Position numbers and translations under genes: made by a program. A DNA stretch of 64,000 nucleotides from Micrococcaceae bacterium. Lineage in GTDB: Bacteria > Actinomycetota > Actinomycetes > Actinomycetales > Micrococcaceae. Numbering within the stretch: position 1 is the stretch's first letter; each line of letters starts with the position of its first letter. The stretch spans positions 1-64,000 of the forward strand of contig JABXHI010000058.1 of the NCBI GenBank assembly GCA_013393415.1, written 5' to 3'. Shown piece after piece: positions 39,996 through 47,609 of the stretch. The notes beneath the pieces were generated by a model. The model searched no databases. It was given only the letters and a program-made list of their open reading frames with translations, and was not told the DNA's origin.

Positions 39996-40358
39996 GTGGA
40001 GCAAAGAGACGATGTAGAAGCACTTGTTGGAAGCTGGCTGACGCTACCGGACGTCGCAGAGCAGCTTGATGTAATTGTGACCCGAGTGCACAATTTGATT
40101 AAGGAACGGCAACTCATCGACGTGCGGCTCGGGGAGGAGCAGATCCGCTATGTACCCGCGGAGTTCCTCACGGATCAAGGTGTGCTGAAGTCCTTACGCG
40201 GGACGATTATGGTGCTTCAGGATGCTGGTTTTGACGATGTCGAAATCATTCGGTGGCTCTTCACCGAAGATGATTCACTGCCTGGTCGACCTATTGATGC
40301 GTTGCGTGCCGGACGAAAAACTGAAATCCGTCGACGTGCACAGGCAATGGGTTGGTAA
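39996..40358 (+). CDS. Rv2175c-like DNA-binding protein
   Basis: The 120-residue protein resembles mycobacterial Rv2175c, a winged-helix-like DNA-binding protein that PknL phosphorylates. A helix-turn-helix lies in about 15-45 (WLTLPDVAEQLDVIVTRVHNLIKERQLID), and the C-terminal helices (GTIMVLQDAGFDDVEIIRWLF) match the family. The frame is open upstream to 39945, but GTG 39996 fits a nearby -10 box. With this start the protein lacks the N-terminal threonine used in the mycobacterial protein, so kinase control is doubtful here. Its stop is 4 nt from the convergent polyprenyl synthase stop. Confidence 0.8.
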   Translation: MEQRDDVEALVGSWLTLPDVAEQLDVIVTRVHNLIKERQLIDVRLGEEQIRYVPAEFLTDQGVLKSLRGTIMVLQDAGFDDVEIIRWLFTEDDSLPGRPIDALRAGRKTEIRRRAQAMGW

Positions 40359-42801: not shown

Positions 42802-42920
42802 CAGCGAATGTCACTTCACCATATGACAATCTCAGCAAATAGTCAGACAAAAACTTTAGAATAGAACCAAACTCAACCGGAGATTCACACGAGTTTTCGG
42901 CAGGACATGTGGAGGCAACC

Positions 42921-43301
42921 ATGGGTTTATCAGATAGAGAGCAAGAGGCTTTTGCTGAGATCGAATCTCAGCTGATTTCCGAAGACCCCAAATTCGCATC
43001 GCAAATGCAATTGGGGAAGGAAGAATCGGCTCGCCGATTCTCCACCCGAAACATAGTGCTTGGCGTACTGACAGCCACCGTTGGTATCGTCGTGCTGCTC
43101 ACCGGCGTGACGATTGACGCGATCTGGCTGGGCATTATCGGTTTCGTGGTTATGGGCGGCGGCATTTACCTGGCCTCGAAACAAACTACAACACCGCCAA
43201 GTAAATCAGGCGGCCGTGGTGGGTCAGGTCAGCAGTCGAAGTCAAACCAAGGTTTTATGGAAGGGCTTGAATCACGCTGGGACGAGCGCCGTCGCCAGTA
43301 G
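42921..43301 (+). CDS. DUF3040 membrane protein
   Basis: A 126-residue protein of the actinobacterial DUF3040 family (equivalent of Rv2169c). The N-terminus LSDREQEAFAEIESQL is the family hallmark. Two transmembrane helices follow (IVLGVLTATVGIVVLLTGV and DAIWLGIIGFVVMGGGIYLA). The tail is Gly/Ser/Arg-rich. ATG 42921 has GGAGG 5 nt upstream; the frame's first possible start, 42909, overlaps that site and is rejected. The family is close to mraZ in many actinobacteria, but its role is unknown. Confidence 0.88.
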   Translation: MGLSDREQEAFAEIESQLISEDPKFASQMQLGKEESARRFSTRNIVLGVLTATVGIVVLLTGVTIDAIWLGIIGFVVMGGGIYLASKQTTTPPSKSGGRGGSGQQSKSNQGFMEGLESRWDERRRQ

Positions 43302-43386: not shown

Positions 43387-45444
43387 CTACGTATCCTCAC
43401 CATCGCGGTGGCCTGGCTCCTTGGTAGGGCGTTTGTCATCTTTGGCAGGCTCTGATGATTCGTCAGTCATCTTCGTGTCGTCATCACGATCCAGCTGTGC
43501 CTCGGGAGCTTGGTAGTCCTGTGCTGATGGCAAAGGCAGGTCGGGAAACGGTCCGGTATGGTCGACCCGGGTGGCCTGAGGCCCGGGATCCGTTGGCATA
43601 GCAGAGGTAGGCAACTGCGGTCCCCCTTCGGCGCCTGGCGCTAACGGTGAACGAAATATTTGTGATTCGGTCAGATCATCATTGGGGCCCTGTACGTTGT
43701 ACGGCTTGTCCTCCTGAGCGGTGTTTGCAGTCATGATGGGGCTGGTATTTGCAGTTCTTCTCCGCCACATCAGCAAGGCTAAGCCCGCGAGGAGTAGCAC
43801 CAGAATGGCTATGGCCACCCATATTGTGGTCGTAGTAGGACCGCTTGCGCTGACATGCAGCGTGCCTGACGAATCCGCCATGACAACGGTGCCACCCGAG
43901 CTTGTCGCGGATTCGCTTTCCCCCGAATGCATTGGGGGAAGTTCTACTTGGAATGTCGCAGTGTCTTTGACCCCACCTGTCGCGAGTTCCCAGATCGGCG
44001 ACAGATCGATGTGTAGATCGTACTGGGGCCATATGCCGTTCAAAGAGTCATGGCTAACAGACACACTGTCGGTAATACCTTTGTCCTCCAAGTATGCGTT
44101 CAGTTTGCTTGCTAAATCTTGAGCATTGGCGCCCTGGATGGTCGTGGTGAAGACTGTCGTCTCATCACGAACGGTTGTTTCAATGCTGCCGACGCCCTCG
44201 GGCGGTGCAAAGAGTTCAACGATTGTATCCTCGTGACCATCCAACGTTTCTTGGGCCACTACAAACTCGAAGGTTTGTGCCATACTGCCCGAAAAGTTGA
44301 GCTGGGACGTAGAAGTCAAAGAATCCAGAGGCATGCCTCGATTAAGTTCCAAGTAGATCTCACCATTGCCCCGGCGTTGGTCCACCATCTGCCAGTGGTC
44401 TGGATAGAGGGTCTCACCGTCTAACTGCCGGACATTTTCAGGAACACAAATTGCATCACAGGACCAGTTTGTCCCAATGTATTCTGTGATGACATCGGGT
44501 GACCCCTCGTCTCGGACGTCATTGACCTCGAACGTAGCCTGATCATTGGCCAGCAGAACCTGCATGCCCTGTTCGACGGCATCGGCTGACGAGAAGGTCG
44601 CCGAAACGGCTCTCGGCTCTGGGGCATCGCCGTCATGATTCTCTACGGCGCCCGAATCCTCGACCGCACCTTCTACCCCGGACACCTCGTTCAGCGCCTC
44701 CACCCGTTCAGCAATGAATTCGTTGTGACTGGTCGCATTTTTCGGTGATACAAGATAGGTCAAGGCGATATCGATATTGCCGGACTCCAGAATTTCCACG
44801 TCCATGCCGAGTTCTTCGAAGCGGCGGTCATCCGTGAGCTCGAGGTTGATGCGGGGGAGTGAAGTGGAGTTCGTGACTTCGTCGCCGTCAAAGATCACCG
44901 ACGCGGTGCCGCTAGAAGTTAACACGCTGCTATTGCCCGAAACGATGTCTTCTTCAATGAGGGCGGTTGAAGCCCAACCCATCAAGTCGTCGTTATAGAA
45001 AGCCTCTTCAAAAACAATATCCGTCACCAACTGTTCTTCGTTGACCTGGATATTCATCCCGCGATCGGATTCAGCGACTTCGGACGCGTCGAGGAGCGTC
45101 GTGATTTTCTGCCGATAGTCCTCCACGTCGTCGAAGGTTAGCGTGAACGTCGCGCTATAGCCTTCGTTTTCTTGTTCGACGCCGTTAAAGCTCAGCACAT
45201 CGGGCACATGATTTTCCAGTGCCTGCGTTGCTGCCTCGATGCCACCGGACAACGTCTCCACATCACTATCAGCCATAGTCAGTACGAACTGGCGTTGCCC
45301 CGAATAGTCGTTCTGGAGGGTGAGTTGTGTGTTGACGTTGGCACCACAAGCCGTCAGGACAAGGGCAGCAAAAATCACGAACAGTGTCGCGATGCGCGTC
45401 CGGGAACCCCGCGGTTTCGTGGGTTGGGTCTGGCTGTGGTTCAT
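43387..45444 (-). CDS. lppM: large LppM-like lipoprotein with C-terminal transmembrane helix
   Basis: The 685-residue protein has a lipoprotein signal peptide with lipobox ALVLTAC (lipidated Cys33), consistent with a membrane-anchored protein. The first 250 residues match DUF3153/LppM (Rv2171), including NVNTQLTLQNDYSGQRQFVLTM and LTFDDVEDYRQK. Residues 250-560 form an extracytoplasmic stretch with several further beta-rich segments, perhaps LppM-like repeats. A transmembrane helix follows at about 568-590 (IWVAIAILVLLLAGLALLMW), then a Pro/Asp-rich cytoplasmic tail. It is about three times longer than mycobacterial LppM. Its neighbours (DUF3040, mraZ) match the mycobacterial order. Function is unclear. 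Confidence 0.82.
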   Translation of the reverse strand: MNHSQTQPTKPRGSRTRIATLFVIFAALVLTACGANVNTQLTLQNDYSGQRQFVLTMADSDVETLSGGIEAATQALENHVPDVLSFNGVEQENEGYSATFTLTFDDVEDYRQKITTLLDASEVAESDRGMNIQVNEEQLVTDIVFEEAFYNDDLMGWASTALIEEDIVSGNSSVLTSSGTASVIFDGDEVTNSTSLPRINLELTDDRRFEELGMDVEILESGNIDIALTYLVSPKNATSHNEFIAERVEALNEVSGVEGAVEDSGAVENHDGDAPEPRAVSATFSSADAVEQGMQVLLANDQATFEVNDVRDEGSPDVITEYIGTNWSCDAICVPENVRQLDGETLYPDHWQMVDQRRGNGEIYLELNRGMPLDSLTSTSQLNFSGSMAQTFEFVVAQETLDGHEDTIVELFAPPEGVGSIETTVRDETTVFTTTIQGANAQDLASKLNAYLEDKGITDSVSVSHDSLNGIWPQYDLHIDLSPIWELATGGVKDTATFQVELPPMHSGESESATSSGGTVVMADSSGTLHVSASGPTTTTIWVAIAILVLLLAGLALLMWRRRTANTSPIMTANTAQEDKPYNVQGPNDDLTESQIFRSPLAPGAEGGPQLPTSAMPTDPGPQATRVDHTGPFPDLPLPSAQDYQAPEAQLDRDDDTKMTDESSEPAKDDKRPTKEPGHRDGEDT

Positions 45445-45623
45445 GTTCTTTGCACTCTAAACTTTCATTCGGCGCGCACCCGAGTCATGCCGTGGTGGAT
45501 GGTGCTCTGCTCCATCGTAGCGAGCGAAGTTCGACAAAGTGACCGAGACACCGCAGAATTCGCTCTGGGTGCGACACGACGTTGCGGCCATTTCGTGGTG
45601 GCTTCGATGCATGAAAGCCCATA

Positions 45624-45638
45624 CCCCACTTTGCTCCA
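45624..45638 (-). promoter_or_regulatory. MraZ-box-like array, distal, facing lppM
   Basis: On the minus strand, TGGAG (45638-45634) and TGGGG (45628-45624) are exactly 10 bp apart. They sit within a 14-mer, GGAGCAAAGTGGGG, which recurs at 45782-45769. In other bacteria MraZ binds TGGGN direct repeats with 5-nt spacers. It is about 180 nt upstream of the lppM start, in the same sense. Confidence 0.5.
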
Positions 45639-45758
45639 CACGGTCGCTGGGTGCTGCAGTGGTGCAGTTTTCGGGGTCGAGAACTTGGCGATGCCCCAGG
45701 AAATTTCGAACTTTTGTCACATTGTTCACACTTTGGAAAATGCGTCCTCCACCACCCT

Positions 45759-45783
45759 CCCCAATACGCCCCACTTTGCTCCT
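45759..45783 (-). promoter_or_regulatory. MraZ-box-like array, proximal, facing lppM
   Basis: On the minus strand, AGGAG (45783-45779), TGGGG (45773-45769) and TGGGG (45763-45759) are spaced at exactly 10 bp. The AAAGTGGGG core is identical to the forward array. It lies about 315-340 nt upstream of lppM. Confidence 0.5.
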
Positions 45784-45890
45784 AGGAACAGTGAATCGGC
45801 GTCATACCGCCCAAGTAAGCGGGATGGTTTTCTGGCGTGCGGGTAGATAATTCTTGGGAAATCCCTGAGAATAGTGTAGAAGATCTTGAA

Positions 45891-45917
45891 TGTGGGGGAA
45901 AGTGGGGTAAAGTGGAG
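45891..45917 (+). promoter_or_regulatory. MraZ operator: three 10-bp direct repeats
   Basis: TGTGGGGGAA, AGTGGGGTAA and AGTGGAGCTC follow each other with a 10-bp period (TGGGG at 45893 and 45903, TGGAG at 45913), about 70 nt before the mraZ ATG. Such arrays are the binding site of the autoregulator MraZ in other bacteria. Confidence 0.75.
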
Positions 45918-45984: not shown

Positions 45985-46416
45985 ATGTTCTTGGGTACTT
46001 ACACTCCACGCTTGGATGAAAAGTCTCGCTTGATCTTGCCAGCGAAGTTCAGAGATGAGCTATCTGACGGTCTGGTACTTACCAGGGGTCAGGAGCGCTG
46101 TGTGTATGTGTTCTCGATGGAGGAATTTCAGCGAGTCCACGAGCAGATGCGAGAAGCCCCACTCTCTTCACGCCAGGCCAGGGATTACATACGTGTGTTT
46201 CTCTCCGGGGCTTCAGATGAAAAACCGGATAAACAAGGCAGGATTACCATTCCGGCCCCGCTGCGTGACTACGCGGGATTGGATCGGGACGTTGCTGTTA
46301 TTGGCGCTGGCACACGTGCAGAAATCTGGGACCAGAACTCCTGGAACGAATACTTGAACCAGCAGGAATCGGCTTTCTCCGAAACTGACGAAGAGGTTAT
46401 TCCGGGGTTGTTCTAA
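45985..46416 (+). CDS. mraZ: transcriptional regulator MraZ
   Basis: MraZ (143 residues) is a dimerised AbrB-like DNA-binding protein that controls the dcw cluster. Two copies of the fold are present: [24 protein letters not shown] and [21 protein letters not shown]. The DxK(S/Q)R.xxP motif is found in both. The start ATG 45985 has GGAGG upstream. It is the first gene of the dcw cluster; three MraZ-box repeats precede it, implying autoregulation. A 167-nt gap separates it from rsmH. Confidence 0.95.
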
Positions 46417-46583
46417 GTCATGGATATCGCACAGCACACAACTCAATTACGACTGGGACTCTTATTTCAGACCTCTATCCGGACAGCTGGCCTGTCTTCC
46501 CCTGGGCCAGGTGCACGGATGGGGATCTGGAGTAAGAGCCATCATTTTTACCGGACAGTGACGGCATAAACCGAAGGAGCGCA

Positions 46584-47609
46584 ATGGCAGCCTTTGACCA
46601 AGACGGTCAGGAACATGGCCAAGAGGCTCCAAGCGCTGCGCAACGTCATGTTCCAGTGATGGCCGATCGAGTCGTTGACGTCATCGCCCCCGGCATTGAG
46701 GTTGCTCGAACGCACGGCAGAACCCCTGTGATTGTAGATGCGACGCTGGGTATGGGTGGTCACACCGAACTGATGCTCAACCGTTTCGAAGATGCCACCG
46801 TCATCGGCATCGATCGCGATACACAAGCCCTAGAGCTAGCAGGCCAGCGGCTGGCTTCCTTCGGTGAACGATTCGTAGCTTTCCACGGAACCTATGACGA
46901 GATCCCCGGTGCACTGGCTTCTGCCTCAGTCGGGGCAGCGGACGGCTACCTTTATGATCTCGGTGTTTCTTCATTCCAGCTGGATGAACGCGACCGCGGT
47001 TTCGCCTATTCATACGATGCACCATTGGACATGCGGATGGATCCGACCGCACGGTTTAGTGCTGCGGATCTTGTCAATAACTACGACCAGCGCGAGCTGG
47101 AACAGCTCATTCGACGATTTGGGGAAGAGAAATTCGCTCGCCGTATTGCAACCGCGATCGTCGAGCGTCGCCGTAACCAACCATTTGCTCGTACCGGTGA
47201 TCTGGTCGAGGTGATTCGCGAGGCCGTGCCGGTATTTGCAGGACGTCCAGGTGGTCACCCGGCAAAACGTACTTTCCAGGCGCTGCGTATTGAAGTCAAC
47301 GAGGAACTTAATATTTTGCGTCAGGCACTACCTGCCGCGATAGATGGGTTGCAGATCGGTGGGCGAATGGTGGTCATGAGCTACCACTCGCTAGAAGACC
47401 GAATTACGAAAAAAGCATTCCAAAAGGAAGCGACAAGCCTGACACCACCGGATTTCCCGGTCGAATTAGAAGAGCATGCTCCAGTGGTCACGGTCCTCAC
47501 ACGAGGGGCTGAAAAGCCCACCGAAGACGAAATCGCCGAGAACCCCCGGGCTGCTTCAGCCAAAGTACGCGCTATAGAAAAGATTCGACCAACTAGGAGC
47601 AACGGATGA
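46584..47609 (+). CDS. rsmH: 16S rRNA (cytosine-1402-N4)-methyltransferase RsmH
   Basis: RsmH (341 residues) methylates N4 of 16S rRNA C1402. The SAM-binding motif is [25 protein letters not shown] follows. [13 protein letters not shown] and the GPLDMRMD-like DMRMDP motif are typical. [14 protein letters not shown] and [14 protein letters not shown] are hallmark C-terminal motifs. The start ATG has AAGGAG upstream (5 nt). It overlaps ftsL by 4 nt. Confidence 0.95.

Follow-up and report, generated by a model that had tools for sequence, protein, structure and literature searches.

Inverted G-rich box arrays phased to the mraZ promoter as putative distal MraZ operators in actinobacteria

In the window analysed here, a stretch of 64,000 nucleotides of contig JABXHI010000058.1 from a Micrococcaceae bacterium, the mraZ promoter is overlapped by a plus-strand array of G-rich boxes, and two further arrays of such boxes lie upstream of it on the minus strand. 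We propose that the two minus-strand arrays are auxiliary inverted MraZ operators of the same promoter, placed 12 and 24 helical turns upstream, and that they work with the promoter array via a DNA loop. As judged from sequence comparison, this reading has a probability of about 0.6. That the minus arrays are occupied by MraZ appears highly probable. Conserved distant minus arrays carry the same box and the same spacing as the promoter array, which makes them candidate second operators for the same protein, and across genomes their distances from it follow a period of 11.2 bp, as might be expected if they acted through a loop.

The mraZ locus and its box arrays

The source genome belongs to the Yaniella/Enteractinococcus group. 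Among the best 80 of 524 relatives, the nearest named MraZ proteins are those of Candidatus Yaniella excrementigallinarum (97% identity), Yaniella halotolerans, and Enteractinococcus helveticum (94% each). The genes and the sequence elements that concern us are as follows.

42909-43301: DUF3040 gene, one gene beyond the lppM-like gene as seen from mraZ
43387-45444, minus strand: gene for a 685-aa lipoprotein-like protein, named lppM in a first-pass annotation, divergent from mraZ
45514-45519, minus strand: candidate -10 of the lppM-like gene, TACGAT, picked by eye in the genus alignment
45624-45638, minus strand: distal inverted array, TGGAGCAAAGTGGGG
45712-45730, unstranded: TGTCACA...CAC island between the two inverted arrays, possibly an operator
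45747-45783, minus strand: middle inverted array, (AGGAG, degenerate)-10-TGGGG-10-TGGGG-12-TGGAG
45886-45891, plus strand: -35-like TTGAAT of the mraZ promoter
45893-45917, plus strand: proximal array that overlaps the mraZ promoter; three boxes spaced by 10 bp
45908-45913, plus strand: -10-like TAAAGT, right after box 2 and running into box 3
45985-46416, plus strand: mraZ (Pfam PF02381, 4.6e-36; TIGR00242 above cut-off)
46584-47609: rsmH (mraW), PF01795 match

The cluster begins with mraZ, followed by rsmH, and the mraZ promoter carries at least three G-rich boxes at 10-bp spacing, as expected of an MraZ-regulated mraZ/dcw promoter. An mraW RNA (RF01746) lies between the two genes at 46453-46548, with a score of 50.6 against a gathering threshold of 50; at gathering thresholds, it is the sole Rfam match between positions 40000 and 52000. 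The AlphaFold model of the window's MraZ has a mean pLDDT of 77, with four other models at 40-43, and aligns with the PDB chains 9r4j and 9sz7 with Z scores of 16.3 and 17.9, respectively. On the other side of the promoter, the 685-aa lppM-like protein gave no Pfam match (E 0.001), no NCBIfam match over cut-off, and no match to PDB sequences (E 1), so that the name lppM is neither backed nor contradicted. Its homologues at E 1e-10 occur in four of the 32 genera of the family sample, own genus included.

The promoter of mraZ reads TTGAAT-16-TAAAGT (45886-45913) and is overlapped by the plus array. No other segment of equal length in the genus alignment is as well conserved as 45891-45917 (rank 1 of 513), and the arrangement recurs among the 152 loci compared in this study. 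The strict proximal pair is found in 138 of them, and TANNNT comes directly after a box in 142; 104 of these 142 also have a TTG at 15-18 nt before the -10. The mraZ promoter is not listed by the promoter scanner, as TTGAAT and TAAAGT probably fall under its threshold. The plus array fits a putative MraZ operator of the known kind on the mraZ/dcw promoter and is consistent with autoregulation.

The first-pass annotation had listed the boxes of all three arrays, and its list was correct on re-reading except for the minus box placed at 45783, where positions 45779-45783 read AGGAG. The plus boxes are TGGGG at 45893, TGGGG at 45903, and TGGAG at 45913. The minus boxes are TGGGG at 45773-45769 and 45763-45759 in the middle array, and TGGAG at 45638-45634 and TGGGG at 45628-45624 in the distal array. 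A further minus box absent from that list, TGGAG at 45751-45747, is located 12 bp past 45763. The 14-mer said to be shared by the minus arrays, GGAGCAAAGTGGGG, indeed occurs twice in the window, both times on the minus strand (45624-45637 and 45769-45782; chance 0.01). The pattern TGGGG-N5-TGGGG is likewise found twice in the window against 0.13 expected, both times at the mraZ upstream region. The 3.14-Mb assembly (92 contigs) contains a single copy of the three-box pattern and three copies of TGGRGNNAAGTGGRG, the latter all upstream of this mraZ. The looser pattern TGGRGN5TGGRG has 18 matches genome-wide versus 20 for the reversed control. Because it shows no enrichment, a lone two-box match is weak evidence, and the case for the arrays is carried by the comparative data. 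Pattern searches of the 3.14-Mb assembly gave no further MraZ targets elsewhere.

Within the genus, the distal array (45624-45639) has a mean column identity of 0.95 (rank 9 of 524), and the conservation of the middle array is moderate (0.76, rank 84 of 503). The 10-10-12 layout of the middle array was also called in five other loci (L042, L049, L078, L082, and L083). The TGTCACA...CAC island between the two arrays is conserved at 0.84 (rank 79 of 521) and mostly confined to the genus. It is possibly the site of a second regulator, for which MtrA is a lead only. The MtrA motif described for S. coelicolor consists of direct repeats of 5-6 nt that are five nucleotides apart (PMC5650626), whereas the island has a period of 9 bp; it is no close fit to the published spacing, and we set aside an MtrA box at this place as unproven. 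A loose MtrA-like repeat pattern has eight matches upstream of mraZ, five of which are in the own genus, against a background of four.

Conservation and helical phasing of the inverted arrays

The 152 loci comprise 82 named loci (the best 80 of 524 relatives, the window, and L005) and a class set of 70 loci drawn from the 135 genomes with an MraZ match among 148 searched. The class set is made up of the 30 best-scoring loci and 40 loci picked by hand to spread over families. None of the 152 loci share an identical 200-bp upstream sequence, and two pairs are more than 90% identical. Twelve of the 13 class-sample genomes in which the MraZ match is absent belong to one genus (g24, 6-10 Mb). We searched the region from -500 to the promoter array for strict pairs, defined as TGGRG-N5-TGGRG.

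The minus arrays are conserved in relatives, as the first-pass annotation had asked to be checked. All eight genus loci with enough sequence have minus pairs, 13 in total against a shuffle mean of 0.04. Among the 74 other named loci, which include a truncated contig of the same genus (L016) with 220 bp of upstream sequence and no pair, 59 minus pairs are found in 43 loci (shuffle mean 0.52, maximum 3). Class-wide, 38 minus pairs are found in 24 of the 70 loci (shuffle mean 0.26, maximum 2). The plus strand has no pair in either named set and four pairs class-wide (shuffle mean 0.20); the reversed pattern gives three and one class-wide, a slight excess over the shuffle values of 0.38 and 0.30. 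Strict minus pairs are missing in 31 of the 74 other named loci and 46 of the 70 class loci, and the distal arrays are therefore not essential to MraZ control.

The pairs are confined in position as well. Three 100-bp bins from -400 to -101 relative to mraZ hold 109 minus pairs, compared with six minus and one plus pairs in 708 kb beyond -800 or downstream of the mraZ start. An unbiased count of 7-mers between -450 and -110 has the box complements among the most enriched, with CTCCACT, CCACTTC, and TCCACTT present in 36, 35, and 31 of 83 genus labels versus 3, 3, and 2 in the background. The spacings between minus-strand boxes peak at 10, and the next most frequent value is 12. In total, 101 minus arrays were called in 75 loci; each has two to six boxes, and 66 have two. 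Two Citricoccus loci (L020 and L021) carry two and three tandem copies of a minus pair, spaced by a period of 23 bp, at about -260 to -310 relative to mraZ. Two Nesterenkonia loci (L038 and L040) have a degenerate minus TGGTG-10-TGGAG, which by eye seems to be flanked by the stop codon of DUF3040 and a terminator-like hairpin.

The phasing tests covered the 142 of 152 loci in which TANNNT comes right after a box; 75 of these have called minus arrays. In each of the 75, we measured how far the first box of the nearest minus array lies from the box that precedes the -10. The distances gather at 78, 89-90, 100, 109-111, 119-123, 132-135, 153-157, 189-192, 201-203, and 222-226 bp, and in-between values such as 95, 126, 149, and 160 also occur. 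With one locus per genus (37 genera, which are not independent of each other, from 75 loci), the best period is 11.2 bp with an nR2 of 16.5. Jittered distances gave a mean maximum nR2 of 3.0 and reached the observed value in none of 2000 sets. In a family-level block-shift null (15 groups, 300 null sets), the fraction reaching the observed value was 0.003 with nearest arrays and 0.010 when any array was allowed; one phasing run excluded arrays at least 330 bp away. The groups were taken from record names or labels, and some families known by label only may coincide with named ones. The phase is alike in Micrococcaceae (0.6 bp, 13 genera) and in the others (-0.3 bp, 24 genera). Multiples of 11.2 bp are matched to within 2 bp by 51 of the 75 nearest arrays versus 26.8 expected, and 24 are further off; the same 75 arrays show no phasing to the mraZ start codon. 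As the period of 11.2 bp was chosen on the same data, the value at a fixed period of 11.0 bp is to be read beside it and is weaker, with an nR2 of 8.2 in the 37 genera, 7.4 in the 24 non-Micrococcaceae genera, and 2.4 in the 13 Micrococcaceae genera (null fraction 0.096). In the window, the first consensus box of the middle array is 134 bp from promoter box 45903, which is about 12 × 11.2, and the first box of the distal array is 269 bp from it, about 24 × 11.2.

The upstream gene and alternative readings

The gene upstream of the arrays differs between the window and most relatives. In 36 of the 43 non-genus loci with minus arrays, a tblastn search of the 1000 bp upstream gives DUF3040, transcribed in the same direction as mraZ, as the closest gene recognised, with 287-718 bp between the end of its match and mraZ; the other seven loci are without a recognised upstream gene, and small genes in the gap are possible. 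Since DUF3040 is the usual neighbour and the lppM-like gene intervenes here, mraZ appears to be the gene that the arrays go with, and they seem older than their present neighbour.

With DUF3040 co-directional, the arrays mostly sit between its end and the mraZ promoter, where bound MraZ could act locally, by blocking transcription that reads through from DUF3040, or be titrated, and would not contact the promoter. This local role is unlikely: it gives no reason to expect phasing to the promoter box, and the arrays are also kept in the own genus, in which the upstream gene is divergent.

The strand-specific orientation of the minus arrays could instead mark a promoter under MraZ control from which an antisense or small RNA is transcribed away from mraZ, and the degenerate pairs seen by eye in some Nesterenkonia loci, close to the stop codon and terminator of DUF3040, would suit such a transcript. 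We consider this explanation quite improbable. A TANNNT directly after either box is found in none of the 110 minus pairs, compared with 142 of 152 loci for the promoter box, and a divergent promoter at the minus arrays was rejected on this ground. Moreover, the one RNA found by Rfam between 40000 and 52000 is the mraW RNA, downstream of mraZ.

The first-pass annotation had suggested that MraZ also controls the lppM side, and the minus arrays do face the lppM-like gene, upstream of it, in all eight genus loci with enough sequence. As operators of that gene, the arrays would be expected only or mainly where it is divergent from mraZ, and the suggestion fails on several counts. Arrays recur beside co-directional DUF3040 in the 36 of 43 loci described above. 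The two-box pairs are absent around the lppM-like genes of other genera in all eight loci inspected (L186-L193, five genomes), for which identity is 25-30% and orthology uncertain. The absence of a -10 after all 110 minus pairs speaks against it likewise, and the phasing to the mraZ promoter holds outside Micrococcaceae as well. The only candidate -10 found for the lppM-like gene is some 105 bp from the nearer minus array; it reads TANGAT in all eight genus loci, and the 11 columns around it are ordinary (0.82, rank 106 of 529). Regulation of the lppM-like gene through the arrays has thus a small chance of being right, and the gene is most likely a bystander beside mraZ operators older than itself, outside the proposed circuit.

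Factors other than MraZ are known at mraZ promoters. MtrA on the mraZ promoter of Dietzia (PMC9602371) is a different protein and another input to an actinobacterial mraZ promoter, and some regulator with a similar G-rich motif might bind the minus boxes. Such a regulator is very improbable here, as the minus boxes share both their sequence and their dominant 10-bp spacing with the promoter array and the motif described for MtrA is a direct repeat of another kind (PMC5650626). Chance in G-rich intergenic DNA is close to negligible as a source of the arrays, although two-box matches are not enriched genome-wide in the assembly, because shuffles, reversed-pattern controls, plus-strand counts, and the position profile all stay far under the minus-strand counts.

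A putative MraZ loop and its relation to known systems

The preferred reading is that of distal inverted MraZ operators cooperating with the promoter array. MraZ bound to the plus array would exclude RNA polymerase, because the boxes fill the spacer and the -10. MraZ oligomers at the distal and proximal arrays may then touch each other, or share one ring, and thereby form a DNA loop, which would tighten the autorepression of mraZ and the dcw operon and make it cooperative. The first-pass annotation had raised the possibility of a loop formed by MraZ at the three arrays. In indirect support of this, the minus arrays have proved to be conserved well beyond the genus and helically phased to the promoter array; that the contact is a loop, and that its sign is repression, we infer. 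A contact of distal MraZ with RNA polymerase, or other contacts with the promoter complex, would lead to similar phasing.

MraZ operators described elsewhere are also repeated G-rich boxes at the mraZ promoter. Boxes of this kind are described for E. coli, and direct repeats of AAAGTG[T/G] at the mraZ promoter for Mollicutes including Mycoplasma (PMC8475190). The account of Burkholderia cenocepacia gives four repeats of 7 nt with 3-nt spacers, equal to a 10-bp period, and states that the Mollicutes MraZ is an octameric ring (PMC7761207). The repeats in B. cenocepacia follow the -10 according to that account, whereas the boxes here fill the spacer and the -10. As far as these accounts describe them, the operators consist of one promoter array; the window has extra inverted arrays about 80-280 bp upstream. 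Cryo-EM entries of the M. genitalium MraZ-promoter complex released in 2026 (PDB 9sz7, with a four-box DNA, and 9r4j) contain a protein to which the model of the window's MraZ is predicted to be alike in fold (Z 17.9 and 16.3), and the titles of these entries name no second inverted array.

The closest likeness in phasing is with the lac repressor, whose auxiliary operators are distal and act in a manner dependent on helical phase, at about 11 bp per turn (PMC8501960, PMC1762422). For the loops that it forms in vivo, one study reports a repeat of about 11 bp and places the optima close to 133 and 144 bp (PMC8501960), and another reports a repeat of 11.08 or 11.60 bp, and 10.95 bp without HU (PMC1762422). 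The 11.2-bp phasing found here resembles this in vivo helical repeat (about 11-11.6 bp). The lac repressor is a different protein, and its looping was measured, while looping by MraZ is deduced from evolutionary spacing.

Neither distal or inverted MraZ arrays nor looping by MraZ came up in the open-access literature searched. Within that literature, the promoter array is of a known kind and the inverted distal arrays are apparently new. A broader proposal, which we hold tentatively and at a little under even odds, is that much of the actinobacteria may share an ancient switch in which MraZ represses the dcw operon by looping between the promoter and inverted, helix-phased distal operators, and that the spacing of these operators may record the in vivo helical repeat of actinobacterial DNA (about 11.2 bp). 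Such a switch would have no close counterpart among the MraZ systems surveyed in the literature.

The regulator MraZ is widespread among bacteria, and its gene stands first in the division and cell-wall cluster. The MraZ of C. glutamicum has reportedly been the subject of earlier published work. With the conserved and phased inverted distal arrays as operators, the MraZ oligomer would gain an obvious second binding partner. The phasing, if true, would allow the helical repeat of DNA in living actinobacteria to be estimated from sequence alone.
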